From NCBI GenBank assembly GCA_024398055.1, contig CP073749.1:124001-188000 (forward strand): DNA of 64,000 nucleotides. Reading direction: 5' to 3'. Made by a program: the position numbers and the translations under genes. This DNA comes from a bacterium SCSIO 12741. GTDB lineage: Bacteria; Bacteroidota; Bacteroidia; Flavobacteriales_G; Salibacteraceae. The notes under the pieces are model-generated. The model did not search any database and was not told the DNA's origin. It saw only the letters and a list, made by a program, of their open reading frames with translations. Positions 41,291 to 62,165 of this stretch are shown here, one piece after another (within the stretch, counting starts at the first letter, position 1; each line of letters starts with the position of its first letter).

Positions 41291-43063
41291 ATGATGCTTT
41301 CTGACCATCAGATAATCGTAGGTATTCTGGCCTTGTTTTTCGGCGTTCTCATTTGGGATCGATGGAGGGCATCGTTGGTGTTTATAGGTACGGCGGTGCT
41401 CTATATTTTCCTGGGGTATTCTGATTTTCAAACCTTTTTATCCTTTTTGTCCAACGAGCAGCTATTGACCATATTGATGCTCATCATTGTGGCCAACCTG
41501 ATCAAAGACAATATTCAATTGGATCGGCTGTTTGGTCGACTTCTGGGAAAAGAGCCTTCGCCGGGCACCTTTCTTTTTAGGATGACTACGGGAGTCTCGC
41601 TTTTCTCCTCCATTCTCAACAATACCCCAATCGTAGCCTTGCTGATTCCCTACGTTCAAGAATGGTCACGCAAAATGGAGATATCTCCGAGTAAAACGCT
41701 TATTCCATTGTCTTATGCAGCCATCACGGGAGGAACCTTGACCGTTATCGGTACCTCCACCAATCTGGTACTTAATGGAATGCTTTCTAATTCCGAACTC
41801 GCGGAGCTTAGCACCTTTCACTATCTGATTCCCGGAGCCATGGTCACATTTGGAGGAATTTTATTTCTCACCTTCTTCTCAGGCCAACTTCTACCCGATC
41901 GCATTTCCTTGATGCAGACCATCAAAAACAACCCTAAAGAATTTATCCTTGAAACCAAGATCCCTACTCTATCTGATTTAGTGGGTCATACTATTCAAGA
42001 TGCTGGTCTGAGAAATTTGCAAGGCGGCTTCCTAACGGAAATTATTCGTGGCACAGAAGTGATTACCCCGGTTTCGCCCAGGGAAGTGCTACAGGCCAAT
42101 GATCGGCTTTTGTTTGCCGGAGACACCGTTCAGCTGCTGGAATTGATTGAATCGAGGGAGGATATGATTCTGCCTAAGGATTCAAAATTTAACCTCGGAA
42201 AAAACCAACAGATACAAGAAGTAATCATTCCGTTCAACTCCAACTTGATTGGCAAAAAAGTAAAGGAGAGCAATTTCAGGGAAACCTATGATGCGGCCAT
42301 TATTGGAATCCACCGCAATGGGGAAACACTATCCGGAAAGATTGGAGATCAGGTTTTTCAACCTGGAGACTTTTTACTTCTCACCACCGGTGAAGGATTT
42401 CGCCAACGGTTGAATACAGATCGGAATCTCTATTTTATTAGTACCCATCGCAATCGTAAAACCGAGGAAGCCCCAAGCTTGTTTCAAAAGCTATACCTAC
42501 CCGTTATTTTGGGCGTCCTGTTATTGGCTCTATTTGGTGTTCTACCCTTACTTCCTGCGGTGTCGTTGATCCTATTTACCCTGATTGCCACAGGTAGAGC
42601 TTCCCTCGATCAAATCAAGAAAAACCTCAACCTCGATATTGCCGCCATCATCGCCTCGGCCTTTTTGATTGGGGATGTTTTGATTCAATCGGGTACCACG
42701 AACTGGATTGCTGAATCCTTGCTTTTTCCGCTTCAGGATATGCCTTTAATCGGCGTTTCACTCTGTGTGTTCTTGTTGGCCATGGCGATAACCAACCTAT
42801 TAACAAACGTGGCTGCGGTCTCCATACTTTTCCCTATTGTTTACAGTTTGACCCTAAGCTTTCCAGAGGATTCGTCCTTTGTTATCTTCCTTTCGCTGGC
42901 CTTTGGAGCATCTGCATCCTTCCTTACACCCTACGGTTACCAAACTAATTTGATGATTAGCGCCGCCGGGGCCTACCGTATGAAGGATTTTCTTAAAATT
43001 GGAGTCTTTTACAGCGGCTTGTATTTTGCTCTTTTTGCCATCTATTTGTTTCTAACAGTATGA
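41291..43063 (+). CDS. SLC13-family anion permease with two RCK-C domains (likely sulfate importer)
   Basis: About 590 residues. ATG 41291 is preferred to the TTG at 41267. Transmembrane halves flank a cytoplasmic region (about 200-385) with two TrkA-C/RCK-C domains (GGFLTEIIRGTEVITPVS...LLFAGDTVQL and YDAAIIGIHRNGETLSGKIG...GDFLLLTTG). SLC13 signatures are SILNNTPIVALLIPYVQ, YAAITGGTLTVIGTSTNLVL and the second SNT-like NLLTNVAAVSILFPIVYSL. Such proteins next to cysC/cysD/cysN commonly import sulfate. Its stop overlaps the cysC ATG (ATGA). Confidence 0.9.
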   Translation: MMLSDHQIIVGILALFFGVLIWDRWRASLVFIGTAVLYIFLGYSDFQTFLSFLSNEQLLTILMLIIVANLIKDNIQLDRLFGRLLGKEPSPGTFLFRMTTGVSLFSSILNNTPIVALLIPYVQEWSRKMEISPSKTLIPLSYAAITGGTLTVIGTSTNLVLNGMLSNSELAELSTFHYLIPGAMVTFGGILFLTFFSGQLLPDRISLMQTIKNNPKEFILETKIPTLSDLVGHTIQDAGLRNLQGGFLTEIIRGTEVITPVSPREVLQANDRLLFAGDTVQLLELIESREDMILPKDSKFNLGKNQQIQEVIIPFNSNLIGKKVKESNFRETYDAAIIGIHRNGETLSGKIGDQVFQPGDFLLLTTGEGFRQRLNTDRNLYFISTHRNRKTEEAPSLFQKLYLPVILGVLLLALFGVLPLLPAVSLILFTLIATGRASLDQIKKNLNLDIAAIIASAFLIGDVLIQSGTTNWIAESLLFPLQDMPLIGVSLCVFLLAMAITNLLTNVAAVSILFPIVYSLTLSFPEDSSFVIFLSLAFGASASFLTPYGYQTNLMISAAGAYRMKDFLKIGVFYSGLYFALFAIYLFLTV

Positions 43064-43650
43064 AAAACGTATACGAACAGTCTTTTAAAATAAACCGAGA
43101 TAGCCGAAATGTACAACTGGGTCATCGCAATCTGGTGATTTGGTTCACTGGTCTTTCCGGATCGGGAAAAAGTACATTGGCCAATGAGGTGGAAAAACGA
43201 CTGTTTGAGCAAGGCATCACCACTTATACTCTGGATGGCGATAACATTCGCAGAGGACTCAATGGCGACCTGGACTTTTCCGCCGAAGGCCGCCAGGAAA
43301 ATATCCGACGTATCGCAGAGACCGCCAAGCTCTTTTGCGATGCAGGAATTGTAACCCTCACCTCTTTTATTTCTCCTTTTGCCAAGGACAGAGAACAAGC
43401 CAAGGCCATCGTTGGCCCTGAGGATTTTGTGGAAGTTTTTGTAGACTGTCCCATAGAGATTTGCATAAAAAGAGACGTAAAGGGATTGTACCGACGGGCG
43501 ATCAATGGCGAAATCCCAGAATTCACCGGAATCAACAGCCCTTACGAAACTCCTGAATCACCTGATATTCGGGTAGATACAGGTACCCGTTCACTGGAAA
43601 CTTCTACCCAGGAAGTTTTGGATTACCTAATCCCCAGGTTGAAGGGCTAA
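43060..43650 (+). CDS. cysC: Adenylylsulfate kinase CysC
   Basis: A 196-residue APS kinase that phosphorylates adenylylsulfate to PAPS. P-loop FTGLSGSGKSTLANEVEKRL, DGDNIRRGLNGDLDFS and the lid/PAPS region FISPFAKDREQAK are present, with YRRAINGEIPEFTGINSPYE near the end. It is a free-standing kinase, not fused to CysN. Coupled to the permease by a 4-base overlap. Its product PAPS serves either sulfite production or sulfotransferases. Confidence 0.97.
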   Translation: MKNVYEQSFKINRDSRNVQLGHRNLVIWFTGLSGSGKSTLANEVEKRLFEQGITTYTLDGDNIRRGLNGDLDFSAEGRQENIRRIAETAKLFCDAGIVTLTSFISPFAKDREQAKAIVGPEDFVEVFVDCPIEICIKRDVKGLYRRAINGEIPEFTGINSPYETPESPDIRVDTGTRSLETSTQEVLDYLIPRLKG

Positions 43651-43654
43651 AGCT

Positions 43655-43662
43655 TACATTTG
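43655..43662 (+). promoter_or_regulatory. Possible internal -7 box TACATTTG before cysD
   Basis: TACATTTG fits TANNTTTG in the 31-base cysC-cysD spacer, 20 bases before the cysD ATG, with a TTG only 13 bases upstream. Could be an internal promoter or chance. Confidence 0.28.
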
Positions 43663-43681
43663 CAACAGAATTTAGGCCTAC

Positions 43682-44584
43682 ATGAAATTGCACTTAAATC
43701 ACCTAAGAACTCTCGAGGCAGAGGCTATGTATATCATTCGCGAAGCCTATGCCCAATTTGAAAACCCTGTGATCCTTTTTTCGGGTGGAAAAGACTCCAT
43801 TGTGATGGCACATATTGCCCGCAAGGCGTTTTACCCGGCAAAGCTTCCTTTTCCTTTGATGCACATTGATACGGGACATAACTTTCCGGAAACCCTGGAA
43901 TTTAGAGACCGCTTTGTGGAGAAGATGGAAACCCGCTTGATCGTAGGTTCGGTTCAAAAGAGCATTGACGAAGGACGTGCTCAGGACGAAAATGGAGTAA
44001 ACGCATCTCGCAATCGTATTCAATCCATTACCCTTTTGGATGCCATTGAAGAAAACAAGGTGGATTGTTGTTTAGGTGGTGGCCGAAGAGATGAGGAAAA
44101 AGCCAGGGCCAAAGAAAGAATATTCTCCCACCGCGACGATTTTGGGCAATGGGATCCCAAAAACCAGCGTCCGGAGCTTTGGAATCTGTACAACGGCAAG
44201 AAAAGCATGGGCGAGCACTTTCGGGTATTCCCGCTAAGTAACTTTACCGAGCTTGACATCTGGCAGTACATTCAGCTGGAAAACATTGAATTGCCATCGC
44301 TCTACTTTGCTCACGAAAGAGAAGTCATTTTCCGAAATGATACTATTCTGGCCAACTCGAGCTACCTCAACTTAAAACCCAATGAGACTCCAGTAATGAA
44401 AAAAGTTCGTTTCCGAACCATTGGAGACTTGACCATTACCGGTGCCGTGGAATCGGATGCCGATAACCTGGAAATGATTATTGGGGAAATTGCTGCTTCC
44501 CGCAAAACCGAACGTGGTGGACGTGCTGACGATCAGCGCTCAGAAACGGCCATGGAAGATCGAAAAAAGGAAGGTTACTTTTAA
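43682..44584 (+). CDS. cysD: Sulfate adenylyltransferase subunit 2 CysD
   Basis: The 300-residue ATP-pyrophosphatase subunit of ATP sulfurylase. PP-loop ILFSGGKDSIVMAHIARKAF, LMHIDTGHNFPETLEFRDRF, CCLGGGRRDEEKARAKERIF and the ending RADDQRSETAMEDRKKEGYF match CysD throughout. With CysN it forms APS from sulfate and ATP, driven by GTP hydrolysis. CysN follows after 16 bases. Confidence 0.97.
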   Translation: MKLHLNHLRTLEAEAMYIIREAYAQFENPVILFSGGKDSIVMAHIARKAFYPAKLPFPLMHIDTGHNFPETLEFRDRFVEKMETRLIVGSVQKSIDEGRAQDENGVNASRNRIQSITLLDAIEENKVDCCLGGGRRDEEKARAKERIFSHRDDFGQWDPKNQRPELWNLYNGKKSMGEHFRVFPLSNFTELDIWQYIQLENIELPSLYFAHEREVIFRNDTILANSSYLNLKPNETPVMKKVRFRTIGDLTITGAVESDADNLEMIIGEIAASRKTERGGRADDQRSETAMEDRKKEGYF

Positions 44585-44600
44585 CAGAATTGCCAAACAC

Positions 44601-45857
44601 ATGTTGACAGAAGATATAGAACTTTTACGTTTTACTACCGCCGGTAGTGTGGATGATGGAAAATCAACCCTCATTGGACGTTTGTTGTATGACTCCAAGT
44701 CCATTTTTGAGGACCAGCTCTCGGCAGTGGAGCAAAGCAGCCAGAAAAGAGGCCTGGATGAACTGGACTTCTCCCTGCTCACGGATGGACTAAAGGACGA
44801 AAGAGAACAAGGAATCACGATTGACGTGGCCTACCGCTACTTTTCCACTCCCAAGCGTAAATTCATCATTGCCGATACTCCAGGACACATCCAGTATACC
44901 CGTAACATGGTGACTGGTGCCTCCAACGCCAACTTAGCATTGATTTTGGTCGATGTGCGTAATGGGGTGATTGAACAAACCAAAAGACACGCCTTCATCG
45001 CCAGTTTGCTCCAAATTCCTCACTTGATCGTTTGCATCAACAAAATGGATTTGGTCGACTATTCGGAAGAAGCTTATGAAAAGGTGATTCAGGAATTTAA
45101 CGAGATTTCTCACAAACTCCAGGTTAAGGATATCCAGTTCATTCCAATCAGCGCCCTCAAAGGCGACAATGTGGTGAATTCTTCCGAAAATATGGATTGG
45201 TACCACGGAGCTACCCTTCTCCATACCTTGGAAACCGTACATATCTCGAATGACGAAAATTTCCTCGATAGCAGATTCCCGGTACAAACCGTAATTCGCC
45301 CACACAGCGAAGCTTTCCACGATTTTAGAGGATACGCCGGAATGGTTACTTCAGGGGTTTTCAAAAAGGGTGAAGAAGTAATTGCCCTTCCTTCCGGAAT
45401 GACCAGCACCATTCAGGACATAATGGTGGGCGATGACTCAGTGGAAACAGCTTATCCTCCTATGTCGGTAGTAATGACTCTGGAAGATGATATCGACATC
45501 AGCCGCGGTAATATGCTGGTTCGGGTGAACAATCAACCGGAACAAGCCCAGGATTTAGATGCCATGATCTGCTGGTTTAGTCACAATGCCTTGCAAACGC
45601 GGAAACGTTACTTGCTGAAGCATACGACCAATGAAGTGAAAGCTATGGTGAAAGAAGTGCTGTACAAAGTAGACATCAACACCATGAGCCGAAACGAGGA
45701 GGATTTGAACATCCGTTTGAATGATATCTGCCGGGTGAAGTTGAGAAGCACCCAGCCTTTGATGACAGATCCTTACCGGACCAATAGACGCTTAGGTGCC
45801 TTTATTATCGTGGATGAAATGACTCACGAGACCTTGGGTGCCGGAATGATTCGTTAA
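44601..45857 (+). CDS. cysN: Sulfate adenylyltransferase subunit 1 CysN
   Basis: A 418-residue EF-Tu-like GTPase. ATG 44601 is chosen, since family members start at MLTEDIELLRFTTAGSVDDG; the 40 residues upstream in the same frame only overlap cysD in another frame. G motifs: GSVDDGKSTLIGRLL, ADTPGHIQYTRNMVTGAS, CINKMDLVD. It ends at the EF-Tu-like C-terminal domain (DPYRTNRRLGAFIIVDEM) without a fused APS kinase, consistent with separate cysC. Its TAA overlaps the convergent SGNH gene's TAA at a shared TTAA. Confidence 0.96.
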   Translation: MLTEDIELLRFTTAGSVDDGKSTLIGRLLYDSKSIFEDQLSAVEQSSQKRGLDELDFSLLTDGLKDEREQGITIDVAYRYFSTPKRKFIIADTPGHIQYTRNMVTGASNANLALILVDVRNGVIEQTKRHAFIASLLQIPHLIVCINKMDLVDYSEEAYEKVIQEFNEISHKLQVKDIQFIPISALKGDNVVNSSENMDWYHGATLLHTLETVHISNDENFLDSRFPVQTVIRPHSEAFHDFRGYAGMVTSGVFKKGEEVIALPSGMTSTIQDIMVGDDSVETAYPPMSVVMTLEDDIDISRGNMLVRVNNQPEQAQDLDAMICWFSHNALQTRKRYLLKHTTNEVKAMVKEVLYKVDINTMSRNEEDLNIRLNDICRVKLRSTQPLMTDPYRTNRRLGAFIIVDEMTHETLGAGMIR

Positions 45858-46747
45858 AGGGAGTTTTGTACCATTTCCTGAGCCTTGGGTAAAATAGCCG
45901 AGGCTACCTTTTGATTTCCCAATGCATTGAGGTGAATGAAATCTCGGTAACATTCATCAGTCATGTAATTCATTCCCTGAATTGTGGGAACTCCTTGCTG
46001 TTTCCAAATCTCCAGGATTTCGAGTCCGTCTTGTTCATATTGTTGTTGGGCTACCTCTTCTCGGGTCGGATGCAAGTATCCCAATACCTGAATTCCATCC
46101 CGATCGGCCATTTCTTTTAACTGTCTGAAGCCTTGATTTTCGGTCCCAAAGCTCGGGTCGCGAGGAGCATTGGGATAAGGGGCAGCATCCCAGCGGTGCA
46201 TCACCAACTTTTTACGAATCAATTCAACCCAGGCCAGACTGTAGGACTCTATTGGATAATTGATATTTACCTCAATGGGACTGTATTCGCCAATGAAATC
46301 TTTTCGATCGTGAGAAGAGTAAACCAGTATCATCACCTTGGCATCGAAGGTGCCATATCGTTTCAAGTAAGCCGCTCCATTTTCCGGCCCCCAGCTTCCG
46401 GCAGAAATATTAAGTACTTGAATGGGTGTATCGATCGCCAGGTTTAAACTATCCTTGAGTAAATTACTGGACAACTCATTATTAGAAAGGTGATCTCCAC
46501 CATTAATGATCGAATCTCCAATTTTGAGTACGGTTATCTTTCCCTTTACCGGCTCGGGATTACGCTGCGACAAGGAGTTGGTCTCAATCAGGTTTCCAAA
46601 TCGTTTTACCTTTTGATTGGGCACCAAAATGTATTCGAAATCACGATCCCCCATATAAAGTACAGGGTTCCCCATGCCCATAAAACGCATTACAATTTCG
46701 GAAACCAAAAGGAGTACGACTATAACCAGAAGTATTTTCCGAATCAA
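45854..46747 (-). CDS. Membrane-anchored SGNH-hydrolase-like protein
   Basis: A 297-residue protein with one N-terminal membrane segment (ILLVIVVLLLVSEIVMRFMG) and a periplasm-facing domain. GDS-type motif TVLKIGDSIINGGDH, an Asn/Gly block (ISAGSWGPENGAA) and the catalytic-type Asp-x-x-His in YRDFIHLNALG fit the SGNH fold. Such proteins can be carbohydrate esterases or acetyl transferases. The start is TTG 46747, overlapping the upstream polymerase stop as TTGA; later ATGs would remove the membrane anchor. Being coupled to a Wzy/ligase-like gene suggests it edits the polymerised glycan. Confidence 0.78.
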   Translation of the reverse strand: MIRKILLVIVVLLLVSEIVMRFMGMGNPVLYMGDRDFEYILVPNQKVKRFGNLIETNSLSQRNPEPVKGKITVLKIGDSIINGGDHLSNNELSSNLLKDSLNLAIDTPIQVLNISAGSWGPENGAAYLKRYGTFDAKVMILVYSSHDRKDFIGEYSPIEVNINYPIESYSLAWVELIRKKLVMHRWDAAPYPNAPRDPSFGTENQGFRQLKEMADRDGIQVLGYLHPTREEVAQQQYEQDGLEILEIWKQQGVPTIQGMNYMTDECYRDFIHLNALGNQKVASAILPKAQEMVQNSL

Positions 46748-48087
46748 AACTGACGCTTTAGAGTACCACTAACGAAGGCAGGAATTTTTTCTTCTACTTC
46801 CTCCCATTTTAGCTCACTCAATTGCAGGGTAACGGTCATAAAAAAGATGACGGTATAGGGGTTGAGTGATGCTCCTAACCAAGGCTCAAAGTTGGCCTGA
46901 AAGAAGGCGGCATATAATGCCGGGAAAGCCAATTTACTTTTCTTAGCAGCCCGGGTGAAGGTAGCCAGCAATCCTCCCAGAAACAGGATCAGACCAATCA
47001 GGCCGTTGTTCAGCCAAACAATGAGGTAAGTATTGTGCACCCCACCTTGGTGGTTTAGGGTTTCCAGCAGGATCTGAATAGGACCGAAAATCCAAATTTC
47101 ATCGTAGGCCCATCCCCGACCCAAAAAGAAGTTTTTCTGAATCTCCTCCCAGGCGAATCGCCAGGCAATTAGTCGACCAGAACCCGTTTCTACACCCTGA
47201 GAACCTTCCAATCGAAGTTCATCTTGCAATCCCACCTCGGTAAGCACATATACACCTGCCTCCAATACAAAATCGTACACGAATATCAGGGTACCTACCA
47301 TGAGTAAGCCAACGGCTAAAGAGATTCGGGAGGTGATGTAATTGAAAACATAAAAAATGAGTACCGACATCAAGGCTGCCCGACTACCCGAATAAAGTAG
47401 CGTGACGATAACAATGAGGTAAAAAAAGATGCGCTCTCTACGTCCAAACCCCTTGTCTTCAAGTTTGCTCTTAACGGTTTCAAAAAACAGCAAGGTAAAG
47501 AGGCAATACATGGCCAATCCATTGGGGTTACCAAAGATTCCACGAAGGCGCCCCCCGTGACTGATTCCATATTCACTGATGGATCCAAAAACCAGGCAGG
47601 AAATAATAATGAGTGCCGAAAAAGTAACAATTCCCTTAAGCGCCGTACGAGGCTGATGCTCGGTAAAGTACTTCATGTAAAAGGGCGCTGAAATTACCAA
47701 AAGGCAATAGGACAAGTATTTACGCGCACTTAACCCGAGGTCAGGACTTACGAAAACCATAGCCATTGCCAGGAGCAAAAAGGGCGTAAGATTCCTTAAA
47801 ACATGATTGGTATAGCCGTATTGCCGATAAATCATAAGGCCCCCAATGAAGACTATGACCATGTAGAGCGGCTTGACTTGGGTGGCAAACTCCAGGTAAA
47901 AGTTATCTGAAAGGATAAGCAAATACCAGAAGGACATAAAAATCATGAGGTAGTTTCTCTGGGCCAAAAGCAGTAGCCCAAAGATCAAAACGATCCCAAT
48001 AATTAAAAATGAATTCAGCTGAAAAATCAGCGGCCAACTCATTAAAAATATCAGAAATGAAAAGTTCTTTTTAATAAACTCTACCAT
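46744..48087 (-). CDS. O-antigen polymerase/ligase-like membrane protein (Wzy/WaaL type)
   Basis: A 447-residue inner-membrane protein with about 12 hydrophobic segments. The Wzy_C/O-antigen ligase region shows LRGIFGNPNGLAMYCLFTLL, YSGSRAALMSVLIFYV and the large periplasmic loop GSGRLIAWRFAWEEIQKNFF-LGRGWAYDE with HNTYLIVWLNNGLIGLILF. The loop residues (Arg, Glu, His) match family positions. It either polymerises repeat units or ligates the chain to a lipid carrier; sequence alone does not decide. Coupled by a TTGA overlap to the SGNH gene. Confidence 0.85.
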   Translation of the reverse strand: MVEFIKKNFSFLIFLMSWPLIFQLNSFLIIGIVLIFGLLLLAQRNYLMIFMSFWYLLILSDNFYLEFATQVKPLYMVIVFIGGLMIYRQYGYTNHVLRNLTPFLLLAMAMVFVSPDLGLSARKYLSYCLLVISAPFYMKYFTEHQPRTALKGIVTFSALIIISCLVFGSISEYGISHGGRLRGIFGNPNGLAMYCLFTLLFFETVKSKLEDKGFGRRERIFFYLIVIVTLLYSGSRAALMSVLIFYVFNYITSRISLAVGLLMVGTLIFVYDFVLEAGVYVLTEVGLQDELRLEGSQGVETGSGRLIAWRFAWEEIQKNFFLGRGWAYDEIWIFGPIQILLETLNHQGGVHNTYLIVWLNNGLIGLILFLGGLLATFTRAAKKSKLAFPALYAAFFQANFEPWLGASLNPYTVIFFMTVTLQLSELKWEEVEEKIPAFVSGTLKRQF

Positions 48088-48204: not shown

Positions 48205-48891
48205 CTACTTATTTTTATCGGTCAAGAATTGGGTGATGATCTCTTCTGGTGACTGAAGATAGCGGTGGTTATCCTTTTCAATCAGTGTTTCAAATCTCTG
48301 AGTATCCACTGAATAGCGATCTCCTTTGTGTACTTTTTGGTAACGAGCCTTTTGCCCAAGCCCCTCTTCCATAATTTCTACCAACCGGGATACCGATGTG
48401 GCATTAGGGTGGCAAACATTGATCTCAAACAAATCAGATTGAGTGAGTGCCGCTGAGATAGCTGCCGCCAAATCTCCTGACCAAAACAGGTAGCGTTCAG
48501 CCTCGGTATGCAATTCAAATTCTCCACCAGAAGTGATTTGATTGTAGAGAAAATTGCAAAATTGATTCGGGTTGGAGGTCGGCCCTACCAAAATGGGTAA
48601 TCGAACCACCAGGGCTCGCTTGGATTCGAGTAGCAAGGCTTCTACTTTCCTTTTGAACTGCACGTATGCCGTACTCGACTTACTCGGATCGAAAACACTA
48701 CAGGTGCTGAAATAGACAAATTTTTTATCTGGAAAACGATCCATGTACTCCTGAAGCAGAGTCCACTCCCGATTAAAGGGATCTTCCAATTTCTCTCCAC
48801 TGTTGGCTACTCCTGAAGCAAAAATGACCAGGTCTTCCCGATCCTTCAAAGAGGCACAACTCCTCGCTACTAATCCATTTCCGACTATCAA
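48205..48891 (-). CDS. Short NAD(P)-dependent epimerase/reductase-like protein
   Basis: A 228-residue SDR-type protein. The Rossmann start IVGNGLVARSC follows directly after the initiator, FVYFSTCSVFDPSK carries the serine/threonine of the SDR active site, and YVQFKRKVEALL gives Tyr-x-x-x-Lys; RLPILVGPTSNPNQF follows. Shorter than classical epimerases but complete in these motifs. The start is TTG 48891, overlapping the upstream glycosyltransferase stop (TTGA); no ATG is available near the Rossmann strand. Probably it modifies a nucleotide sugar; the reaction is unknown. A 117-base spacer with no gene separates it from the polymerase. Confidence 0.78.
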   Translation of the reverse strand: MIVGNGLVARSCASLKDREDLVIFASGVANSGEKLEDPFNREWTLLQEYMDRFPDKKFVYFSTCSVFDPSKSSTAYVQFKRKVEALLLESKRALVVRLPILVGPTSNPNQFCNFLYNQITSGGEFELHTEAERYLFWSGDLAAAISAALTQSDLFEINVCHPNATSVSRLVEIMEEGLGQKARYQKVHKGDRYSVDTQRFETLIEKDNHRYLQSPEEIITQFLTDKNK

Positions 48892-50030
48892 ACCGAGGCC
48901 GAATTTAATACTTCTATCAAACGATTGCCCAGGTATTCCCAGGTAAATGATTCCTTCACTTGATCCAAAGCACCTTGCTTTCTTCGGTCCAGTTCTTTAG
49001 GATCTTCCTGAATGAGAAGATTAAATTGTTTCTCAAACTCCTGATGATCCGGAACCAACCAGCCAGTATGATCATTGACCAACTGATTTACAGCGCCAAC
49101 ATCCATGGCCAAAGCCGTTAATCCACGCCCCATAGATTCGGGTAACACGGTAGGAAAACCTTCCGATATACTTGGAAGTAACAAACAATCGCAAGTATCT
49201 ACAATGTTAAAATATTGCGTAAGTGAAGTAACCTTACCATGGTAATGAAATGCAGCATCGGTAGGACGAATTCCTTCGTCTAATTCTCCAATCCAATGCA
49301 ATTCAAAATCGCCTTTCTTTCCAAATGCCTGATTGGCAATTTGCAGCAGTTCGGGAATACCCTTTCTACGCTCATTTCTTCCAATGAAAAGAAACTTCTT
49401 AGTACTTCCGGTGGGCTGTATGCTATCCTTTAGGTTGTCCTTGAGCAATCCTCCGTGAAAATTGATCAAGTTCTTATCACTTCCCAAAAGCTTGTGGTGC
49501 AGGTCACGAATTTTCCCGCCGTAACAAAGAATCCAATCCGCATTTCTTAGACTGTCTAAAGCGATTCGTTGGAGGCTCTTAGCTGCCATCTTCGATTTAA
49601 AATCAAAGGTGGGTTGGAACATTTCCAAGCCGTGCAGCTGAGAAATTACTGGTGGAAAATTCTTTCGGGACTCCTTCTTCCAGGTACAAGCTGTAAACCC
49701 TTTGGTTAAGATGGCATCAAATGAGGATAGGTCGTCCCTGCCTTCCAAAGCTTTATACAAGTTTTTACTATATCCACGTTCCGACAAAACGTAAGTAAGG
49801 GGCATGGAAAAAGTGGGGTACTCAACAGGGTTTAGTTTCACTTGACCTTTCCAAGTTTTTGGAAACACCTCCCAGAACTTATCCTGGTTCAAATAGGCGG
49901 GTAAATAGACCTCTACCTGCCATCCCCGTTCCACGAGAGCCAAAAGCAGGTAGTAAGCATGACGTTGCATACCACCAATGGTCATGGGATAAATCCCGTC
50001 TGTAATCAGAAGAGCTTTAGGTGCTGTCAT
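48888..50030 (-). CDS. Family 4 glycosyltransferase
   Basis: A 380-residue GT-B enzyme. The N-terminus LLITDGIYPMTIGGMQRHAY has the glycine-rich acceptor loop, and the C-terminal GT4 core shows KFLFIGRNERRKGIPELLQI and LPSISEGFPTVLPESMGRG with the Glu-x7-Glu pair. Cytoplasmic, builds the surface glycan from an NDP-sugar; linkage unknown. It lies 16 bases after the WecE transaminase gene and overlaps the short epimerase by 4 bases. Confidence 0.92.
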   Translation of the reverse strand: MTAPKALLITDGIYPMTIGGMQRHAYYLLLALVERGWQVEVYLPAYLNQDKFWEVFPKTWKGQVKLNPVEYPTFSMPLTYVLSERGYSKNLYKALEGRDDLSSFDAILTKGFTACTWKKESRKNFPPVISQLHGLEMFQPTFDFKSKMAAKSLQRIALDSLRNADWILCYGGKIRDLHHKLLGSDKNLINFHGGLLKDNLKDSIQPTGSTKKFLFIGRNERRKGIPELLQIANQAFGKKGDFELHWIGELDEGIRPTDAAFHYHGKVTSLTQYFNIVDTCDCLLLPSISEGFPTVLPESMGRGLTALAMDVGAVNQLVNDHTGWLVPDHQEFEKQFNLLIQEDPKELDRRKQGALDQVKESFTWEYLGNRLIEVLNSASV

Positions 50031-50046
50031 GAAGATTGCCGTCTAT

Positions 50047-51177
50047 TTATAGGTAAAACTTCCTGATTCGTTCTATGACGCGAAGCTGCTCGTCCTTTTC
50101 CAAAGCAGCATAAAACGGCAATCGAACCAAACAGGAGGAATACCGATCGCAATTGCTTAAGTCTCGTCCGTCATGCTTGTCTTTGAAGTAATCGCTTTGG
50201 TGCAAACTCTGGTAGTGGAACACAGCGTGAATGTTTTCTTCCTTGAGGAATTTGATCAGCTCAGATCGTTGTTTCAGGGAATCACAAACCAGATAGAACA
50301 TGTGGTAATTGTTGGTCGCATAGTCTGGAATAACAGGCATGCGAACTTTATCGTTCAAGTCTTTTAGTCCTTCCCAATACAGGTTCCAAATCTCCGCTCT
50401 TCGCGACTGAATGGCTTCCAGATTCTGAAGCTGGGCATAGAGGAAAGCTGCAATCATTTCTGATGGCAAATAGGACGATCCTAAGTCTACCCAGCCGTAT
50501 TTATCAATCTCGCCCCGAAAAAATGCCGAGCGATTGGTTCCTTTTTCCCATACTATTTCTGACCGTTCTACCCACTGATCATCGTTGATAGCGATCAATC
50601 CACCTTCACCTGAAATCACATTTTTGGTTTCATGAAAAGAAAAGGTGGCCATCTGTCCAATACTTCCCAGCGACCGTCCTTTGTAAAATGAATCGATAGC
50701 CTGAGCCGCATCTTCTACTACGTATACCCCATGTTTTTTGGCCACTTCCATGATGGGGTCCATATCACATGCTACTCCGGCGTAGTGTACCGGTACGATC
50801 AATTTGGTTTTAGGCGTGATCAACGATTCGATGGCTTCTTCATCCATTCCCGGATGATCGGGTCTGGAATCAATGAATCGAAGCTTTGCACCTTTTAAGG
50901 CAAATGCATTTGCTGTGGAAACAAAGGTGTAAGAAGGTAGAATTACCTCATCGCCCGGTTGCAAATTCAAGAGCACTGCGCTCATTTCCAAGGCATGGGT
51001 ACAAGACGTGGTCAGTAGTCCTTTTTTAATGGAGTAACGCTCCTCAAAAAAAGCCTGGCATTTGCGGGTATAAGCCCCGTTTCCGGATAATTGCCCAATA
51101 TCAATGGCATCAAGAATGTACTCTGTTTCCTGTCCCGTGAAATAGGGTTTATTAAAAACGATTTTCTTATGTGTCAT
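50047..51177 (-). CDS. wecE: dTDP-4-amino-4,6-dideoxygalactose transaminase (WecE/RffA type)
   Basis: A 376-residue PLP-dependent DegT/DnrJ/EryC1 aminotransferase. VFNKPYFTGQETEYILDAI and the block LSGNGAYTRKCQAFFEERYS are characteristic of RffA/WecE. The PLP lysine is in FSFHETKNVISGEGG, with VVEDAAQAIDSFYKG for the pyridine-contacting Asp. It converts dTDP-4-keto-6-deoxyglucose to dTDP-Fuc4N. No rmlA/rmlB genes for the precursor are in the window. ATG overlaps the phosphoesterase stop (ATGA), so it belongs to the aminosugar module running from 55202 down to 48205. Confidence 0.92.
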   Translation of the reverse strand: MTHKKIVFNKPYFTGQETEYILDAIDIGQLSGNGAYTRKCQAFFEERYSIKKGLLTTSCTHALEMSAVLLNLQPGDEVILPSYTFVSTANAFALKGAKLRFIDSRPDHPGMDEEAIESLITPKTKLIVPVHYAGVACDMDPIMEVAKKHGVYVVEDAAQAIDSFYKGRSLGSIGQMATFSFHETKNVISGEGGLIAINDDQWVERSEIVWEKGTNRSAFFRGEIDKYGWVDLGSSYLPSEMIAAFLYAQLQNLEAIQSRRAEIWNLYWEGLKDLNDKVRMPVIPDYATNNYHMFYLVCDSLKQRSELIKFLKEENIHAVFHYQSLHQSDYFKDKHDGRDLSNCDRYSSCLVRLPFYAALEKDEQLRVIERIRKFYL

Positions 51178-51875
51178 TGTCCTATTCTAACTCCTCGGTA
51201 TAATACTTGAAAAATGTACTCTTCGTAGCCCTTTCGTTTCATGTCTTCTACTATCACATCCACCGGGTACTCCACCCTCACCTGAACAAAACTATTGTCT
51301 TCCTCCAATATACCGTAGGAGGCACGTGGGTCTCCATCACGAGGTTGCCCGATGGAGGCCGGGTTCAAATGCATTTGGCCACTTTCCACTTGTTTACAGA
51401 AAAACTGATGAGTATGTCCAGTAGCCAGAATATGGGTATCCTCTAAATAGTTGTCCGCATATTCCTGATCAAAATTCAAAAGGTATTCATCAATTGGATC
51501 CTGCATCCCGCCGTGAACCATCATCAACTTACGGTTATTCCGGGAAATGGTTCTGGATTCTGGCATTTCGGCCAGGAAGGAAATATTTTCTGAGCTTAAC
51601 TCTTTCTGCTGGCGTTGCAAAATACGAGTCGCCGTTTTCGATCGATCGATGCGCCCTTCGTTGTGAATTAAGGCATAATCGTGGTTTCCCATAATGCAGG
51701 GAATCTGTTCTTCCCGCAATCGATCAACCACTTCATTGACCATGGAATTAAATCCAATTAAGTCACCCAGGCAATATACTTGCTGAATTCCTCGCTGGTG
51801 GATGTCCTTTAAAACGGCATCCAGAGCAGGGTAATTCCCATGAATGTCAGATATAAAGGCTATGGGTTCAGTCAT
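51174..51875 (-). CDS. Metallophosphoesterase (calcineurin-like)
   Basis: About 233 residues. ATG 51875 is chosen over a frame extension because the fold begins right there (TEPIAFISDIHGNYPALDAV). The five metallophosphoesterase blocks are present: DIHGN, YCLGDLIGFN, CIMGNHDYAL, VHGGMQDP and ATGHTHQFF. Related enzymes hydrolyse phosphomonoesters or diesters, including dinucleoside polyphosphates. Embedded with 8-base and 4-base overlaps between an ATP-grasp gene and WecE, it may dephosphorylate an intermediate of the same sugar pathway, an inference. Confidence 0.88.
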   Translation of the reverse strand: MTEPIAFISDIHGNYPALDAVLKDIHQRGIQQVYCLGDLIGFNSMVNEVVDRLREEQIPCIMGNHDYALIHNEGRIDRSKTATRILQRQQKELSSENISFLAEMPESRTISRNNRKLMMVHGGMQDPIDEYLLNFDQEYADNYLEDTHILATGHTHQFFCKQVESGQMHLNPASIGQPRDGDPRASYGILEEDNSFVQVRVEYPVDVIVEDMKRKGYEEYIFQVLYRGVRIGQ

Positions 51876-52830
51876 AATGTATTTGGTCCTTGATGTATCG
51901 AACAGCTCTCCCGGATTTAAGAGAAACTTCTTCGGGAAGTTCACCTAATAAAAAGTAGGAAAGGCACATTTCCGGTTCATTGTAACCAAAAGACGTTCTA
52001 ATGGAACAGGCACTGGATATTCTGGGGTTTATTTCCAAAATATAGGGTTTACCATCCTCCATCCTAAACTGCATATTGGTGGGTCCAATGGGACGAAACA
52101 CCTGACAGAGTTTAGCGGCATATTCCATAATGGCAGCGTTGTTCTCAACCCAGGCCTTTGACGTTGAACCGTCCTTAGAAAGAACTCTTCTCAAAAGAAT
52201 GGAATTTTTAAAACTGCCATCTCCCGTACCAAAAACGGCCAGGGTATATTCACTTTGTTCGTCCCCAATTACCTTTTGACAAAGGATCGCATCGGGGTCG
52301 GACTCCGTGTAAAAATCAAATTCTCGTTTTGTATGGATCTTACGAATACCCTTAGAGGCAGAACCTTTGCGCGGCTTGATCAAAAAGGGCAATCCCAATT
52401 GTTCAGCGTTTTGCTCAAAGGAACATCCCTGCAAAGTTGGGATTACGTCCCAATCGGATTCATTTTCCAAGTATCGGTAGAAGTCCAGTTTATCAGTGCA
52501 CAGTTCCATAAGCTTGGATTGATTGTGCACCCATTTGGCCTTGAGTTGCTCACCAGCGGCCATAAAGGCTTGGATGTCGGGCTCAATTCCTGGAATGATC
52601 AAATCAATTTGGCGCTCAGCAACCAGCTGATTGATGTAGGGAATAAAATCAGGATCATTGGCTGGAATACCTTGAATAAAAGTATCGCACCACTCCTGCC
52701 CTACCGCATCGTCATAAATATCAATTCCAATAATATGGAGATCGTATTTAGACGCTTTAAGGGAATGCAAAATGCCATAACCGATGATGGCTCCAACTCC
52801 GGTAACCAGTACCGTTTTTTGGTTTTGCAT
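51868..52830 (-). CDS. ATP-grasp ligase-like protein
   Basis: A 320-residue ATP-grasp enzyme of the carbamoyl-phosphate-synthase-like type seen in polysaccharide loci. The pre-ATP-grasp Rossmann part is VLVTGVGAIIGYGILHSLKA; the ATP-binding core has LPFLIKPRKGSASKGIRKIH and the metal-binding end YILEINPRISSACSIRTSFG. Such proteins join a carboxylate to an amine using ATP. Lying between the methyltransferase (2-base gap) and phosphoesterase, next to an aminosugar transaminase, it could attach an amino acid or other acid to the sugar amine. That product is inferred, not seen. Confidence 0.85.
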   Translation of the reverse strand: MQNQKTVLVTGVGAIIGYGILHSLKASKYDLHIIGIDIYDDAVGQEWCDTFIQGIPANDPDFIPYINQLVAERQIDLIIPGIEPDIQAFMAAGEQLKAKWVHNQSKLMELCTDKLDFYRYLENESDWDVIPTLQGCSFEQNAEQLGLPFLIKPRKGSASKGIRKIHTKREFDFYTESDPDAILCQKVIGDEQSEYTLAVFGTGDGSFKNSILLRRVLSKDGSTSKAWVENNAAIMEYAAKLCQVFRPIGPTNMQFRMEDGKPYILEINPRISSACSIRTSFGYNEPEMCLSYFLLGELPEEVSLKSGRAVRYIKDQIHYD

Positions 52831-52832
52831 AT

Positions 52833-53582
52833 TTAGCTATTAACAGAGGCTTCGATGTAAACCATCGTGGTCAATTCTGGATAGTCAACCCCGATTTTCA
52901 ATAAAGCCTGGTGAATGTTGTCGTCAAAATTCAATTTCTGCATCTGCCCGGTAGTAATCACCTTCAGCGCCACTCCCTCTACCCGATGAATGGTCAATCC
53001 ACAATCCTTGAGGAACTCAACGATGGTTTCGGAAGAATAGTAACGTCGATGTCCAAGGATGTAATCTTGTTCCTGAAAAGCAAACAAGTCATCCAAAAGA
53101 CCGGCTTCAAATCCAATGCGACGGTTCAAGGACGTGGCGGAAGGAACGCTGATAAAGAACCGTCCACCTGGGGCCAACCATTTCTTGTAATGCTCAATGA
53201 TGAATCCAGGATCGTAAACGTGCTCCAACACATTGCACATGGCAATGTTTTGAAAGGTTTTTCCCGGGTTGTATTCCTCAAAGAAGGTGCACACCAAATC
53301 CACGGAGTTCAAATCAGGGTTGTCCTCCTTGAACTTGTCAATTAAAATGGATGAACCATCGAGGGTAGTCACCTGTTTAAAATTCTCTTGGAAAATCCGG
53401 GTTGTGGTTCCATCCCCCAATCCCAATTCAAGAATTTCGTCGTGGTTTTGGGCATGGGCAACAATCTGGTTACTAATCCAGGTAATGTTGCGAATGTTCT
53501 CATCATTATAGACTCCATGGTACCCGGCGGCCGAATCCTCAATTCTCTGTCTTTCGTCGTCTGGTAAATGAATGTTGCTCAC
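52833..53582 (-). CDS. Class I SAM-dependent methyltransferase
   Basis: A 249-residue methyltransferase. Motif I is ILELGLGDGTTTRIF, the acidic residue follows in TLDGSSILIDKFK, motif IV is NIAMCNVLEHVYDPG, and the post-motif is WLAPGGRFFISVPSATSLNR. The start is GTG 53582, overlapping the GT2 stop (GTGA); ATG is absent near the N-terminus. Probably methylates a sugar or lipid-linked intermediate of the aminosugar module. Substrate unknown. Confidence 0.88.
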   Translation of the reverse strand: MSNIHLPDDERQRIEDSAAGYHGVYNDENIRNITWISNQIVAHAQNHDEILELGLGDGTTTRIFQENFKQVTTLDGSSILIDKFKEDNPDLNSVDLVCTFFEEYNPGKTFQNIAMCNVLEHVYDPGFIIEHYKKWLAPGGRFFISVPSATSLNRRIGFEAGLLDDLFAFQEQDYILGHRRYYSSETIVEFLKDCGLTIHRVEGVALKVITTGQMQKLNFDDNIHQALLKIGVDYPELTTMVYIEASVNS

Positions 53583-54505
53583 TTGATTATGGTTTTAATA
53601 ATGTACAATGGGCGATTTTGAGTCTGGGTAAAAATCTTGGACAGGTAAAGCCCCACAATGCCCAAACTCAATATGACCACTCCTGTGGAAAACAGAAGCA
53701 GTGCTGCTAAGGTGGTGAATCCAGATAAAATAGTTTCTGGAAAAAGTATCTTTTTTACAAACAGGAAGGTCATAAAACTCAAACTCAACATCGAGATGAT
53801 CAGACCTAAATAGAACAGGAAGTAAAGCGGCTTGGGTGAAAAGGATGAAATCGCCTGAAACATCAGATTGAGGCGATGAAAAAAGGAATAGGTCGATTTC
53901 TTTCTTGAGCTTTTCTCCACCACAATTCCTACTTGGTGGTAACCCACCCAATACATCATCCCGCCTAAAAACAGGTTTCGGTCTCCTAAGGATACCAACT
54001 TACGAACGTATTCCTGACTCATCAATCGCTCGGTCATCACGTTCTCGGGTACATGGGTTTGGCTGAAGAAGTTGAACACTTTCCAAAACCATGATCCCAG
54101 ATAGGCTTTCACCCAACTTCCTTTACGCTGGGCTTGAATTCCGTAAACAACATCCGCACCCGTTTTGTGTTTTTCTTCATAAAAACGCTCGACCAAAGAG
54201 GGCATTACTTCCAGATCACAATCAATAAGGAATACATCCTTTCCAGTGGACTGTTCCAGACCAGCCGTAATGGCATAGTGATGACCAAAGTTTCTTGAAA
54301 ACTCAACGATGACAATCTCAGGGGTCTGTGCCTTTCGCTTGACCAACAATTCTTTGGACTGATCCGTAATACCATCCAGCACAAAAATCAGCTCGAAGGA
54401 CTGTATACCGAGCTTCTCAATGCTCTCCAAACAGCTATCGATAAACCGATTTAAATAGGACTCAGATCGGTAAACGGTGGTAACTACGCTCAGCTCAGGA
54501 GTCAT
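53579..54505 (-). CDS. Membrane-anchored family 2 glycosyltransferase (ArnC/DPM-like)
   Basis: About 308 residues. The cytoplasmic GT-A domain begins PELSVVTTVYRSESYLNRFI and has the DxD-type VFLIDCDLEVMPSLVERF; FSRNFGHHYAITAGLEQ is typical of polyprenyl-phosphate sugar transferases. Two C-terminal transmembrane helices (LYFLFYLGLIISMLSLSFM; LLLFSTGVVILSLGIVGLYL) complete the ArnC/GtrB-like shape. It likely makes a polyprenyl-phosphate-linked sugar. ATG 54505 (or 54514) overlaps the WbqC stop. Confidence 0.9.
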   Translation of the reverse strand: MTPELSVVTTVYRSESYLNRFIDSCLESIEKLGIQSFELIFVLDGITDQSKELLVKRKAQTPEIVIVEFSRNFGHHYAITAGLEQSTGKDVFLIDCDLEVMPSLVERFYEEKHKTGADVVYGIQAQRKGSWVKAYLGSWFWKVFNFFSQTHVPENVMTERLMSQEYVRKLVSLGDRNLFLGGMMYWVGYHQVGIVVEKSSRKKSTYSFFHRLNLMFQAISSFSPKPLYFLFYLGLIISMLSLSFMTFLFVKKILFPETILSGFTTLAALLLFSTGVVILSLGIVGLYLSKIFTQTQNRPLYIIKTIIK

Positions 54506-55202
54506 AAACGGCATTGGTTTTCAAATACTTCATAGCCTCATCACCCACGTTATATAACAAATCCAAAATGGTGACGGCATGCTCAAAGGCCCCAAACATC
54601 TGCGGATATTCAGGATAGCCACTGTAATCAAAGTAGTGTACTTGAACCCCCTTATCGTTAAACAGGGACTCATCCAAATAGGATTTGGAAGCTGGACCGC
54701 AATAGTAATCCGTTGCACCAGCAGCCAGACATACATTGACCAACCTCTCGGTTTTTCCTTCTCCCAGATCAAATTCGCGGCTGTCGCTAATCTTCGTATC
54801 TATTCCCAATCGGGCGTTAATCTTCTCAATAAAATGGCGGTTTATTTCAGTCAGGTTTTCGCGAGGAGCGGTTTGGTAAATCTCTTCCACCCAAGGATGG
54901 ATATCACCAAAACAAGGGGCCTTACCATAGTTCAATTGGAAAGAGCGTAAATGCTTGTCGGCCCATTTGGTTTCAGACGTTAAGGTCTCATTGATCTTCT
55001 GCTCAAACTTTCCTTTAACCACTACCGGAATGGTCAACCATTGAACCCCTTGTGGAGTTTTGATTTTGTTCCGATTACGCCAGTCACGACGGGTGTACTG
55101 CATGTCATCATACAACACGATTTCATCCACCGCATTGATGTTGTCAAAATACCCTTTCCAGGGAATGTAATTGGACTGTGTAATTACGATGCTCTTACCC
55201 AT
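54495..55202 (-). CDS. WbqC family protein
   Basis: A 235-residue member of the WbqC family (PF08889), found in many O-antigen clusters. The conserved start VITQSNYIPWKGYFDNINAV, VLYDDMQYTRRDWRNRNKI and IKTPQGVQWLTIPV are all present, as is ATDYYCGPASKSYLDESLF near the end. I know of no settled reaction for the family; the association with 4-amino-sugar transaminases such as the WecE gene here suggests a step in amino-sugar substitution. It starts the overlapping aminosugar string, with a 92-base upstream spacer. Confidence 0.9.
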   Translation of the reverse strand: MGKSIVITQSNYIPWKGYFDNINAVDEIVLYDDMQYTRRDWRNRNKIKTPQGVQWLTIPVVVKGKFEQKINETLTSETKWADKHLRSFQLNYGKAPCFGDIHPWVEEIYQTAPRENLTEINRHFIEKINARLGIDTKISDSREFDLGEGKTERLVNVCLAAGATDYYCGPASKSYLDESLFNDKGVQVHYFDYSGYPEYPQMFGAFEHAVTILDLLYNVGDEAMKYLKTNAVYDS

Positions 55203-55294: not shown

Positions 55295-56746
55295 TTAGTC
55301 CGACTTGGACAAAATTTTGAACTTCCTGTCGAAATGCACGAATACCGTGGATAACAAGAGGACGTACATGGGGTAGATGGTAATGGAATAGCGAGGTCCC
55401 TGGTATTGTGAGTAATAGGAAATTACCAGCACCAGTTGAATACATAATCCAGCTATCAAAATACCGTAAAAACGGGTATCCTTTCTACGCAATAAAAGCC
55501 ACAACCCGGGAATAATTCCAGCCAGTAGCAGGTAATAGAGGAAGGAGTAAAAAAGCTTGATCCCTTTTTGAACCATGTTCATTTGCCCGAAGGATGGAAA
55601 GGGAAGAAAGGTGCTTCCACTGCTGAATATCAAACGTTTCATTCCCCGAACACCGGCCCATACGCTGTATCGAAAGGGGTGGGCCTCCTGAAAAGATTTT
55701 AAATACCCCTGAGCTTCCCAATGGATCAAGGAATCTTGCCGGTAAAACTCTTCGTCAGACTCCAGGTTTTGAATCGCCTGATATCGTTCTTTTAGGTTTT
55801 GAATGTCCTGATAGGTGTAATCTACTCCCTCGAAAACATAATCTGGGAAGGTAAATGGTTCTTCTATGGGATCGCGTCGAAACCATTTGGCCATGCCGGG
55901 TTCAAAATAGACGGCTTGTCCCCCCCAACGGTAGAATAAAGTTCGAACGGATTGCCAACCCGGGCTATAAACCCGACCATAGTCCTGCACGCCTGTGGTT
56001 AAAAGCACCAGCTTGTCGTTCACCTTGTAGTTTCGCACCACCCAGGCCGACTCAAAAACGATGAAAGGAATTCCGAAAATGATTAGGTGGACTATGGTTC
56101 GCAGAAACTTCTTCCGGTACTTAACCAATATCAACAGCGGGATTAGTAGAAGGTTAACCCCTAAAAAGGGTCGAAGGAAAATCGCCCAGGCTAAAAAGAG
56201 TCCAGCCATGAGCAGGGTGCTTTTCTTAGGATCTTTTAGGTAGCGAACCAGGTGGAAGAAGAAGAAAATCATCGCACTTACCGAAAAGCTTTCCGAAATT
56301 GTCTGATAATCAAAAACGGAGGTAAAAGTGCTAATCAAGTAAATCCAAAAAGTGAAGTAAAAGGCTCTTTTGGAGTTTAAAATCAACTCGGCGGTTCGGG
56401 CCAATACATAGACCGAAGTCGCACTTAATACCAACTGACCAATAACCAGCAAATTGAGAGCAATGGCTTTGGAAAAAATGAATCGGAGCACCATGTAGGG
56501 AAACCAGTACCCGGGCATTCTCCCACTAAAGGTTTGACCGGGAATGTACTCGTAGCGCCCATGCTCAAAGAAATTGTCTACCGGAAGCAGGAAGTAATGA
56601 TAGTCATTGTGTTCGAAGATCCAGCCATAGAGGAAGCGATCATCGGACTGACTGTGGTAATGAACCAGAAATAGCAACATGAGAGCCTTCACCAGTAGGG
56701 CGATGGTCAGAAAATGATACTTGTTCCAATTCCTATTAAAAAACAT
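55295..56746 (-). CDS. Polytopic glycosyltransferase-like membrane protein (GT39/ArnT-like)
   Basis: About 483 residues with roughly 11 hydrophobic helices. The first periplasmic loop carries an acidic pair (YHSQSDDRFLYGWIFEHN), as in GT-C enzymes that use polyprenyl-phosphate sugars, followed by GRMPGYWFPYMVLRFI. ATG 56746 is used; the longer frame begins at a TTG. A tall periplasmic segment around residues 250-370 precedes the last helices. Likely adds a sugar on the periplasmic side, perhaps from the polyprenyl donor made by the GT2 gene at 53579. The family call is moderate. Confidence 0.7.
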   Translation of the reverse strand: MFFNRNWNKYHFLTIALLVKALMLLFLVHYHSQSDDRFLYGWIFEHNDYHYFLLPVDNFFEHGRYEYIPGQTFSGRMPGYWFPYMVLRFIFSKAIALNLLVIGQLVLSATSVYVLARTAELILNSKRAFYFTFWIYLISTFTSVFDYQTISESFSVSAMIFFFFHLVRYLKDPKKSTLLMAGLFLAWAIFLRPFLGVNLLLIPLLILVKYRKKFLRTIVHLIIFGIPFIVFESAWVVRNYKVNDKLVLLTTGVQDYGRVYSPGWQSVRTLFYRWGGQAVYFEPGMAKWFRRDPIEEPFTFPDYVFEGVDYTYQDIQNLKERYQAIQNLESDEEFYRQDSLIHWEAQGYLKSFQEAHPFRYSVWAGVRGMKRLIFSSGSTFLPFPSFGQMNMVQKGIKLFYSFLYYLLLAGIIPGLWLLLRRKDTRFYGILIAGLCIQLVLVISYYSQYQGPRYSITIYPMYVLLLSTVFVHFDRKFKILSKSD

Positions 56747-56788
56747 GGCGGCCAAGATATAGTTTACATTTTGGGTGATGGAGTTCTT

Positions 56789-60090: not shown

Positions 60091-60513
60091 TTATTCCTGA
60101 GCCGGTTTCCAGTGTTCCACTACCCTGTTTTTCACTTCGGTAGTACTGTAACCATGATCCCGGTTGGTGTAATAAATGCTCTTAGCCAAATCTGGGCCGG
60201 TGATGGGTCTCCCCCGGTAATCATCGCCTAAGAAACGTACATCAAATTGACGCTCCTTCATGATTTCCATGAGCTCCTCTTCGGAATTATAACCAATCAC
60301 CTCATCCACGTAGCGTGAATTTTCGAGAATCAGTTTGCGCTCTTCAAAGGAATACACGGGAGGCTTTTTTCCTGGATTGATTTCAGGGTCTATATTCTCT
60401 GCCCGATTGAGTCCCAACACCAAATAGTCACAGTGCTCTCTGCATTCCTGAAGCATAAGCACATGACCAGCGTGAAACAGGTCGTAAACTCCGCAGGCAA
60501 ACCCTACTTTCAT
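60091..60513 (-). CDS. Cytidylyltransferase-like nucleotidyltransferase
   Basis: A 140-residue protein of the adenylyl/cytidylyltransferase family. FACGVYDLFHAGHVLMLQEC contains the HxGH active site (HAGH), and the second signature is RDHGYSTTEVKNRV (ISTT/S-type). Size and motifs resemble TagD (glycerol-3-P cytidylyltransferase) and the C-terminal domain of HldE (heptose-1-P adenylyltransferase). Given the adjoining PfkB kinase and SIS isomerase, I favour activation of a heptose- or sugar-1-phosphate, an inference. It overlaps the FkbM gene by 4 bases. Confidence 0.88.
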   Translation of the reverse strand: MKVGFACGVYDLFHAGHVLMLQECREHCDYLVLGLNRAENIDPEINPGKKPPVYSFEERKLILENSRYVDEVIGYNSEEELMEIMKERQFDVRFLGDDYRGRPITGPDLAKSIYYTNRDHGYSTTEVKNRVVEHWKPAQE

Positions 60514-61244: not shown

Positions 61245-61255
61245 ATCTTCCGATT

Positions 61256-62164: not shown

Positions 62165-62165
62165 A

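Follow-up and report, generated by a model that had tools for sequence, protein, structure and literature searches.

The window analysed here is a stretch of 64,000 nucleotides (contig CP073749.1, positions 124,001 to 188,000) from the single-contig, 5.1-Mb genome of the bacterium SCSIO 12741. At 48205-55202 it holds eight open reading frames (ORFs), all on the minus strand, and neighbouring ORFs overlap or are separated by gaps of at most 16 bases, as a first-pass annotation of this DNA had described. In the order of transcription they encode WbqC, a family 2 glycosyltransferase (GT2), a methyltransferase, an ATP-grasp ligase, a phosphoesterase, WecE, a family 4 glycosyltransferase (GT4) and a short protein of the short-chain dehydrogenase/reductase (SDR) type. 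We checked the gene labels with Pfam and NCBIfam models. They hold for WbqC, GT2, the S-adenosylmethionine (SAM)-dependent methyltransferase, ATP-grasp, Metallophos_2, DegT and GT4, while the protein that had been called an epimerase is a short SDR scoring just below the cut-off (Table 1); GxGxxA and YxxxK are visible in its sequence. The stretch is probably best described as an ordinary-looking O-antigen segment that holds a recurrent two-enzyme module, the ATP-grasp ligase and the phosphoesterase, to which a probable function can be assigned.

The phosphoesterase, left without a role in the first-pass annotation, is the constant partner of the ligase and the main clue to its mechanism. Its gene lies directly 3' of the ATP-grasp gene, with overlapping reading frames, throughout the clade to which the window's ATP-grasp belongs (eight members, support 100/99), which spans several Bacteroidota families and one Chloroflexi metagenome-assembled genome. 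The pair is found in the same order at seven other distant loci, and therefore the set exceeds chance. What surrounds the pair varies. With loci outside the window given L numbers and MT standing for methyltransferase, the order is GT2-MT-SDR-pair-WecE in L003, WbqC-Nudix-thiamine pyrophosphate (TPP) enzyme-pair-GH130-like-GT2 in L004, DegT-WbqC-SDR-pair and then two GH130-like genes in L027 and L028, and WbqC-MT-pair in L029; only a FemAB-like gene adjoins the pair in L005. An SDR often adjoins the ligase at other ATP-grasp loci. GT4 was not seen adjoining the pair in the other loci, and the window's GT4 probably acts elsewhere in the glycan. The listed start of the phosphoesterase (51944) gives a 77-base overlap with the ATP-grasp gene; aligned homologues point instead to an in-frame ATG at 51875 (MTEPIAFISDIHGNY), which is probably the true start and leaves an overlap of 8 bases. 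The window protein has the full set of metal-binding residues (DxH, GD, GNHD, H, GHTH), and the active-site Asp, His and Asn are kept in 15 ATP-grasp-linked homologues, with one Asn-to-Asp change.

The ligase matches ATPgrasp_Ter, ATP-grasp_3 and PRK12767 among the Pfam and NCBIfam models, with no TupA-like match. Its AlphaFold model has a pLDDT (predicted local distance difference test) of 89.7, and the best match in the PDB is the uncharacterised 2PN1 (TM score 0.78); PurK and PylC come next, and PurT and biotin carboxylase rank only a little lower, all at 14-19% identity. Lys114, Lys152, Glu266, Asn268 and Arg270, which serve catalysis and ATP or metal binding, are conserved across 21 relatives. 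Arg215, Arg278 and Arg311 lie beyond the usual ATP-site residues and are nearly invariant in the same 21 proteins; they are compatible with an anionic co-substrate, without proving one. The ligase is rare. When one genome from each of 84,980 species was scanned, for close relatives only, three clear relatives and one weak one came up, and samples of 395 and 396 genomes from the class and the phylum gave four further clear relatives. No strong relative of the ligase turned up in 60 near relatives of this genome, which suggests horizontal spread. Viral contigs and phage records contained no relative, and plasmid records contained distant ones only, chiefly from Sinorhizobium at less than 35% identity.

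The more distant ATP-grasp relatives (n=13) share about 27-31% identity with the window protein where this was measured. Twelve of them have a phosphatase gene that adjoins the ligase gene or is one SDR gene away, and these phosphatases have three unrelated folds: a distant calcineurin type (L032, L034, L041, L043, L045, L047, L093), PHP (L006, L031, L033) and HAD (L042, L044). The remaining relative, L046, lies on a contig of 4.8 kb that stops just past the SDR. Phosphatase types are scattered on the ATP-grasp tree, but its deep branches have low support, which leaves the count of swaps uncertain. In 39 WbqC control loci (493 ORFs) where this ATP-grasp is absent, no calcineurin or PHP member was present, and a HAD protein occurred in two. 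Because one ligase family keeps company with three unrelated phosphatase folds, the changing folds would be explained most simply by a phosphate that has to be removed after, or before, ligation.

The transaminases found near the ATP-grasp gene are predicted to be 4-aminosugar types, often WecE. Those of the window, L003, L031, L034 and L040 score above the WecE cut-offs (above both in the window), and those of other loci are nearest to DesI, PseC or LegC. The window's WecE matches 4PIW and 6BLG in the PDB. RmlB (480 bits, cut-off 365) and RmlA (477 bits, cut-off 361) are encoded elsewhere in the same genome. On account of the WecE scores together with RmlB and RmlA, the best reading of the sugar is thymidine diphosphate (dTDP)-linked 4-amino-4,6-dideoxygalactose (dTDP-Fuc4N), with a predicted galacto configuration. 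This supports the synthesis of dTDP-Fuc4N that had been proposed in the first-pass annotation.

The sequences themselves show the order of the genes, their families, the conserved catalytic residues and the repeated coupling of ligase and phosphatase; beyond this, we suggest the following route. RmlA and RmlB would supply dTDP-4-keto-6-deoxyglucose, which WecE would convert to dTDP-Fuc4N. The ATP-grasp enzyme would activate a small phosphorylated acid at its carboxylate and link it as an amide to the 4-amine of dTDP-Fuc4N; the earlier proposal that an acid is attached to this amine at the expense of ATP is thus kept as the best reading. Candidates for the acid are 3-phosphoglycerate and phosphoserine, suggested because they are common phosphorylated acids of the cell. 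The overlapping phosphoesterase would strip the phosphate after ligation, and the methyltransferase may modify the product. The ArnC-like GT2 would then transfer the decorated sugar to undecaprenyl phosphate, from which a periplasmic GT-C-type transferase would probably add it to the surface glycan. In two sister loci, an acetolactate-synthase-like TPP enzyme stands directly before the ATP-grasp gene (L004:1709-3547 and L040:7866-9527), and this enzyme could supply the attached acid.

We regard this reading of the module, a phosphorylated acid placed on the amine of dTDP-Fuc4N and then dephosphorylated, as a serious possibility that falls short of being probable. With more reserve, we put forward a general route for the acylation of 4-amino sugars, in which an ATP-grasp enzyme may couple a phosphorylated central metabolite (e.g. 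3-phosphoglycerate) and a dedicated phosphatase of calcineurin, PHP or HAD type, recruited repeatedly, frees the N-acyl sugar. The pair is likely an unrecognised way to decorate bacterial glycans and a variant of a known principle of ligation followed by dephosphorylation. No paper linking WecE or Fuc4N with an ATP-grasp was found in the literature. Many bacterial glycans bear amino sugars with unusual N-acyl groups of unexplained biosynthesis. If the proposal is true, the ligase/phosphatase pair can be recognised in genomes and such decorations become predictable from sequence. It would also offer a testable function for proteins whose present annotation goes no further than "carbamoyl phosphate synthase-like" or "metallophosphoesterase".

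The comparison with other WbqC loci bears on this proposal in both directions. WbqC loci without the pair usually contain a DegT transaminase and ordinary N-acyltransferases (PglD-like, GNAT or formyltransferase), and it is as if the pair stands in place of these. An N-acyltransferase was found near WbqC in 25 of 39 loci without the ATP-grasp versus none of the eight strong ATP-grasp loci (Fisher p=0.001), but the control loci are the highest-scoring ones of the same class and the test ignores relatedness, which counts against the proposal. So do several other points. Both an ATP-grasp and a nearby N-acyltransferase are present at seven of the 13 distant relatives, and therefore the exclusion is limited to the window's clade. 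A FemAB/GNAT-like gene that precedes the pair in L005 was left out of the N-acyltransferase count. In the stretch read for L005, L006, L029, L033 and L047, no DegT transaminase was recognised. The nearest solved folds of the ligase include N-carboxylating and N-formylating enzymes besides the amide-forming PylC. Finally, we infer the substrates of the ligase, as we do the order of the steps and the part played by WbqC.

Four other explanations need to be weighed. The partners could be swapped as in Campylobacter, with a uronic acid supplying the carboxylate to which the ATP-grasp couples a phosphorylated amine (serinol phosphate or ethanolamine phosphate); the phosphoesterase would then dephosphorylate the product, and WecE would serve another sugar of the glycan. 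This two-step logic has been demonstrated for Cj1438C plus Cj1435, and L003 has two UDP-sugar dehydrogenases. However, sugar dehydrogenase matches occur at only four loci, and the one in L044 resembles a different oxidoreductase. The neighbouring pyridoxal phosphate (PLP) enzymes are 4-aminosugar transaminases, above WecE cut-offs at five loci, and Cj1438C is a TupA-like ATP-grasp, for which the window protein has no match. We consider this arrangement unlikely. We also doubt that an unphosphorylated acid or amino acid is joined to dTDP-Fuc4N while the phosphoesterase acts elsewhere, for instance on a lipid-linked intermediate or a nucleotide sugar. Glycans are known to contain 4-aminosugars substituted with amino acids, and the nearest folds include that of the amino-acid ligase PylC, but neither the three unrelated phosphatase folds that track one ligase nor the constant overlap of the two genes in the window's clade would be explained. 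It is quite improbable that these are simply O-antigen genes of the ordinary kind without a joint reaction, their neighbourhood reflecting shared regulation only: O-antigen loci are mosaics, and GT4, the short SDR and WbqC do vary independently of the pair, yet the order and overlap of the pair are kept across two phyla while the surroundings change. Least probable of all is that a PurT- or PurK-like ATP-grasp N-formylates or N-carboxylates the amine and the phosphoesterase clears an inhibitory by-product, since, even though the best fold matches include PurK, PurT and biotin carboxylase and the related cassette L080 has a formyltransferase of the usual type, fold matches at such low identity cannot set a substrate, and a dedicated enzyme family already formylates 4-aminosugars with no need for a phosphatase.

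The first-pass annotation had read the eight genes as one joint pathway. As a fixed unit they can be ruled out, since WbqC, GT4, the SDR and the methyltransferase assort independently of the pair across loci. Independent distribution of the genes, which that annotation had named as evidence against its own reading, was found for WbqC, GT4 and the epimerase-like SDR and was not found for the ATP-grasp and the phosphoesterase. What related genomes show is a set of unequal layers and not a single fixed pathway. Methylation after attachment of the acid, also proposed earlier, is not established. The methyltransferase family recurs in L003, L027, L028 and L029; it is also present in WbqC cassettes without the ATP-grasp, including those of viral contigs, and therefore need not methylate the added group. 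The GT2 matches PgfS and ArnC over its full length, below both cut-offs, and two loci that carry the pair encode orthologues of it (46% and 38% identity). The GT2 is a candidate for loading the sugar onto undecaprenyl phosphate. SMR-type/EamA proteins are present in L003 and L004, and no SMR gene was recognised in the window module; the SMR-type proteins and the GT-C neighbour would fit a route through a lipid-phosphate donor. A relative of the GT-C-like protein adjoins WecE in L031.

Table 1. Genes of the eight-gene stretch and its immediate flanks, with supporting model scores
Product	Position	Strand	Evidence
WbqC family protein (PF08889)	54495..55202	-	Pfam 258.9 bits, cut-off 21.3
GT2, ArnC/PgfS (polyprenyl-phosphate sugar transferase) type	53579..54514	-	PgfS 189 bits; ArnC/PRK10714 122 bits, cut-off 529
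SAM-dependent methyltransferase	52833..53582	-	Methyltransf_23 62.5 bits
ATP-grasp ligase, carbamoyl-phosphate-synthase-like (PRK12767.1-1)	51868..52830	-	NF009402 226.6 bits, cut-off 218
Calcineurin-like metallophosphoesterase	51174..51875	-	Metallophos_2 85.9 bits; start moved from 51944
WecE, dTDP-4-amino-4,6-dideoxygalactose (Fuc4N) transaminase	50047..51177	-	NF008687 545.3 bits, cut-off 375; TIGR02379 503.1 bits, cut-off 434.85
GT4 glycosyltransferase	48888..50030	-	Glyco_trans_1_4 58.7 bits
Short SDR (epimerase/dehydratase-like), weak match, 228 aa	48205..48891	-	PF01370 20.1 bits, cut-off 20.9
Membrane GT-C-like transferase, directly upstream of the eight	55295..56755	-	PMT_2 25.2 bits, cut-off 26.1 (just below)
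Wzy_C (O-antigen ligase/polymerase-like) protein, downstream	46744..48087

Of 295 genomes of the class, 273 encode WbqC, which was therefore ruled out as a marker of the system. In 40 WbqC loci of polysaccharide type, DegT directly adjoins in 15 and is within six genes in 32. The AlphaFold model of WbqC is confident (pLDDT 94.4), and at E<=0.001 its fold had no match in the PDB. Of the weak matches, the most plausible is glycerol-3-phosphate cytidylyltransferase (rank 5, probability score 0.72), which is a lead only, with tRNA synthetases lower. Among open-licence papers, none on the reaction of WbqC was found. WbqC in Bacteroidia seems to be split into a near-universal group at about 100 bits and a group above about 180 bits in polysaccharide loci (compare L001 and L002). 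At least 80 putative viral contigs of IMG/VR encode WbqC (L119-L198); GenBank phages gave one match. About 30 of these contigs have a compact DegT-like/WbqC/GH130-like/methyltransferase cassette inside larger islands of glycan genes, and these cassettes include very short DegT-like proteins of about 205-215 aa. The order DegT-WbqC-GH130-like-GH130-like-small protein-methyltransferase is conserved in L101, L108, L109, L110 and L113 from diverse Bacteroidota, and the small protein is a GNAT in L101 and L110. We know of no role for GH130-like proteins in sugar synthesis.

Since the eight genes are flanked by the GT-C-like gene upstream and the Wzy_C protein downstream, the locus is a surface-glycan locus. 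Genes for adenosine 5'-phosphosulfate (APS) kinase and CysD/CysN-like sulfate activation adjoin the glycan cluster at 43060-45857, which suggests that the glycan may be sulfated; CysD/CysN-like genes are likewise near the ATP-grasp relative in L033. At 60091-63573, consecutive genes encode a SIS isomerase, a PfkB-type kinase, a GalE-like SDR, an FkbM methyltransferase and a TagD/HldE-like nucleotidyltransferase, a row resembling a pathway for a nucleotide-activated heptose or a similar sugar.

Several known systems share parts of this arrangement. In enterobacterial common antigen, the amine of Fuc4N is N-acetylated by the acetyltransferase WecD. The window shares with it a WecE transaminase above curated cut-offs, whereas no WecD-like acetyltransferase was recognised near the module. 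The Arn system for 4-amino-4-deoxy-L-arabinose (L-Ara4N; ArnC/ArnT and the SMR-type ArnE/F) is similar in having a 4-aminosugar transaminase beside an ArnC-like GT2, and the likeness extends to the SMR/EamA proteins of L003 and L004 and to the GT-C-like gene next to the window module. However, its sugar is different, the window's GT2 is below the ArnC cut-off, and the ATP-grasp and the phosphoesterase have no Arn counterpart. In a sugar cluster of Clostridium acetobutylicum, CA_C2189 is an ATP-grasp amino-acyl ligase (PMC4000134). Here the likeness, judged by setting and not by sequence, is an ATP-grasp ligase inside a sugar-modification cluster, while the Clostridium setting is that of a nonulosonic acid with an acyl carrier protein and acetyltransferases.

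Among proven systems, the closest in logic is glucuronamide synthesis in Campylobacter jejuni HS:2 (Cj1436/Cj1437, Cj1438C, Cj1435), to which we liken the module by its predicted chemistry. There, Cj1438C uses ATP to link glucuronate with serinol phosphate or ethanolamine phosphate, after which the phosphatase Cj1435 strips off the phosphate (PMC11800397). Common to both would be amide formation by an ATP-grasp with a phosphorylated block, a phosphatase and a surface polysaccharide. In C. jejuni, the growing chain already contains the uronic acid to which the phosphorylated amine is joined, whereas the predicted partners in the window are reversed. The C. jejuni enzymes are a TupA-like ATP-grasp (PMC11800379) and a HAD phosphatase; those of the window are a PRK12767-family ATP-grasp and a calcineurin-like phosphatase, with HAD proteins only beside distant relatives. 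The PLP enzymes differ as well, the window's neighbour being a 4-aminosugar transaminase. By its predicted families, then, the window does not belong to the Campylobacter glucuronamide system. If our proposal is true, the principle extends beyond the uronic acid amides of Campylobacter, to our knowledge the only proven case.

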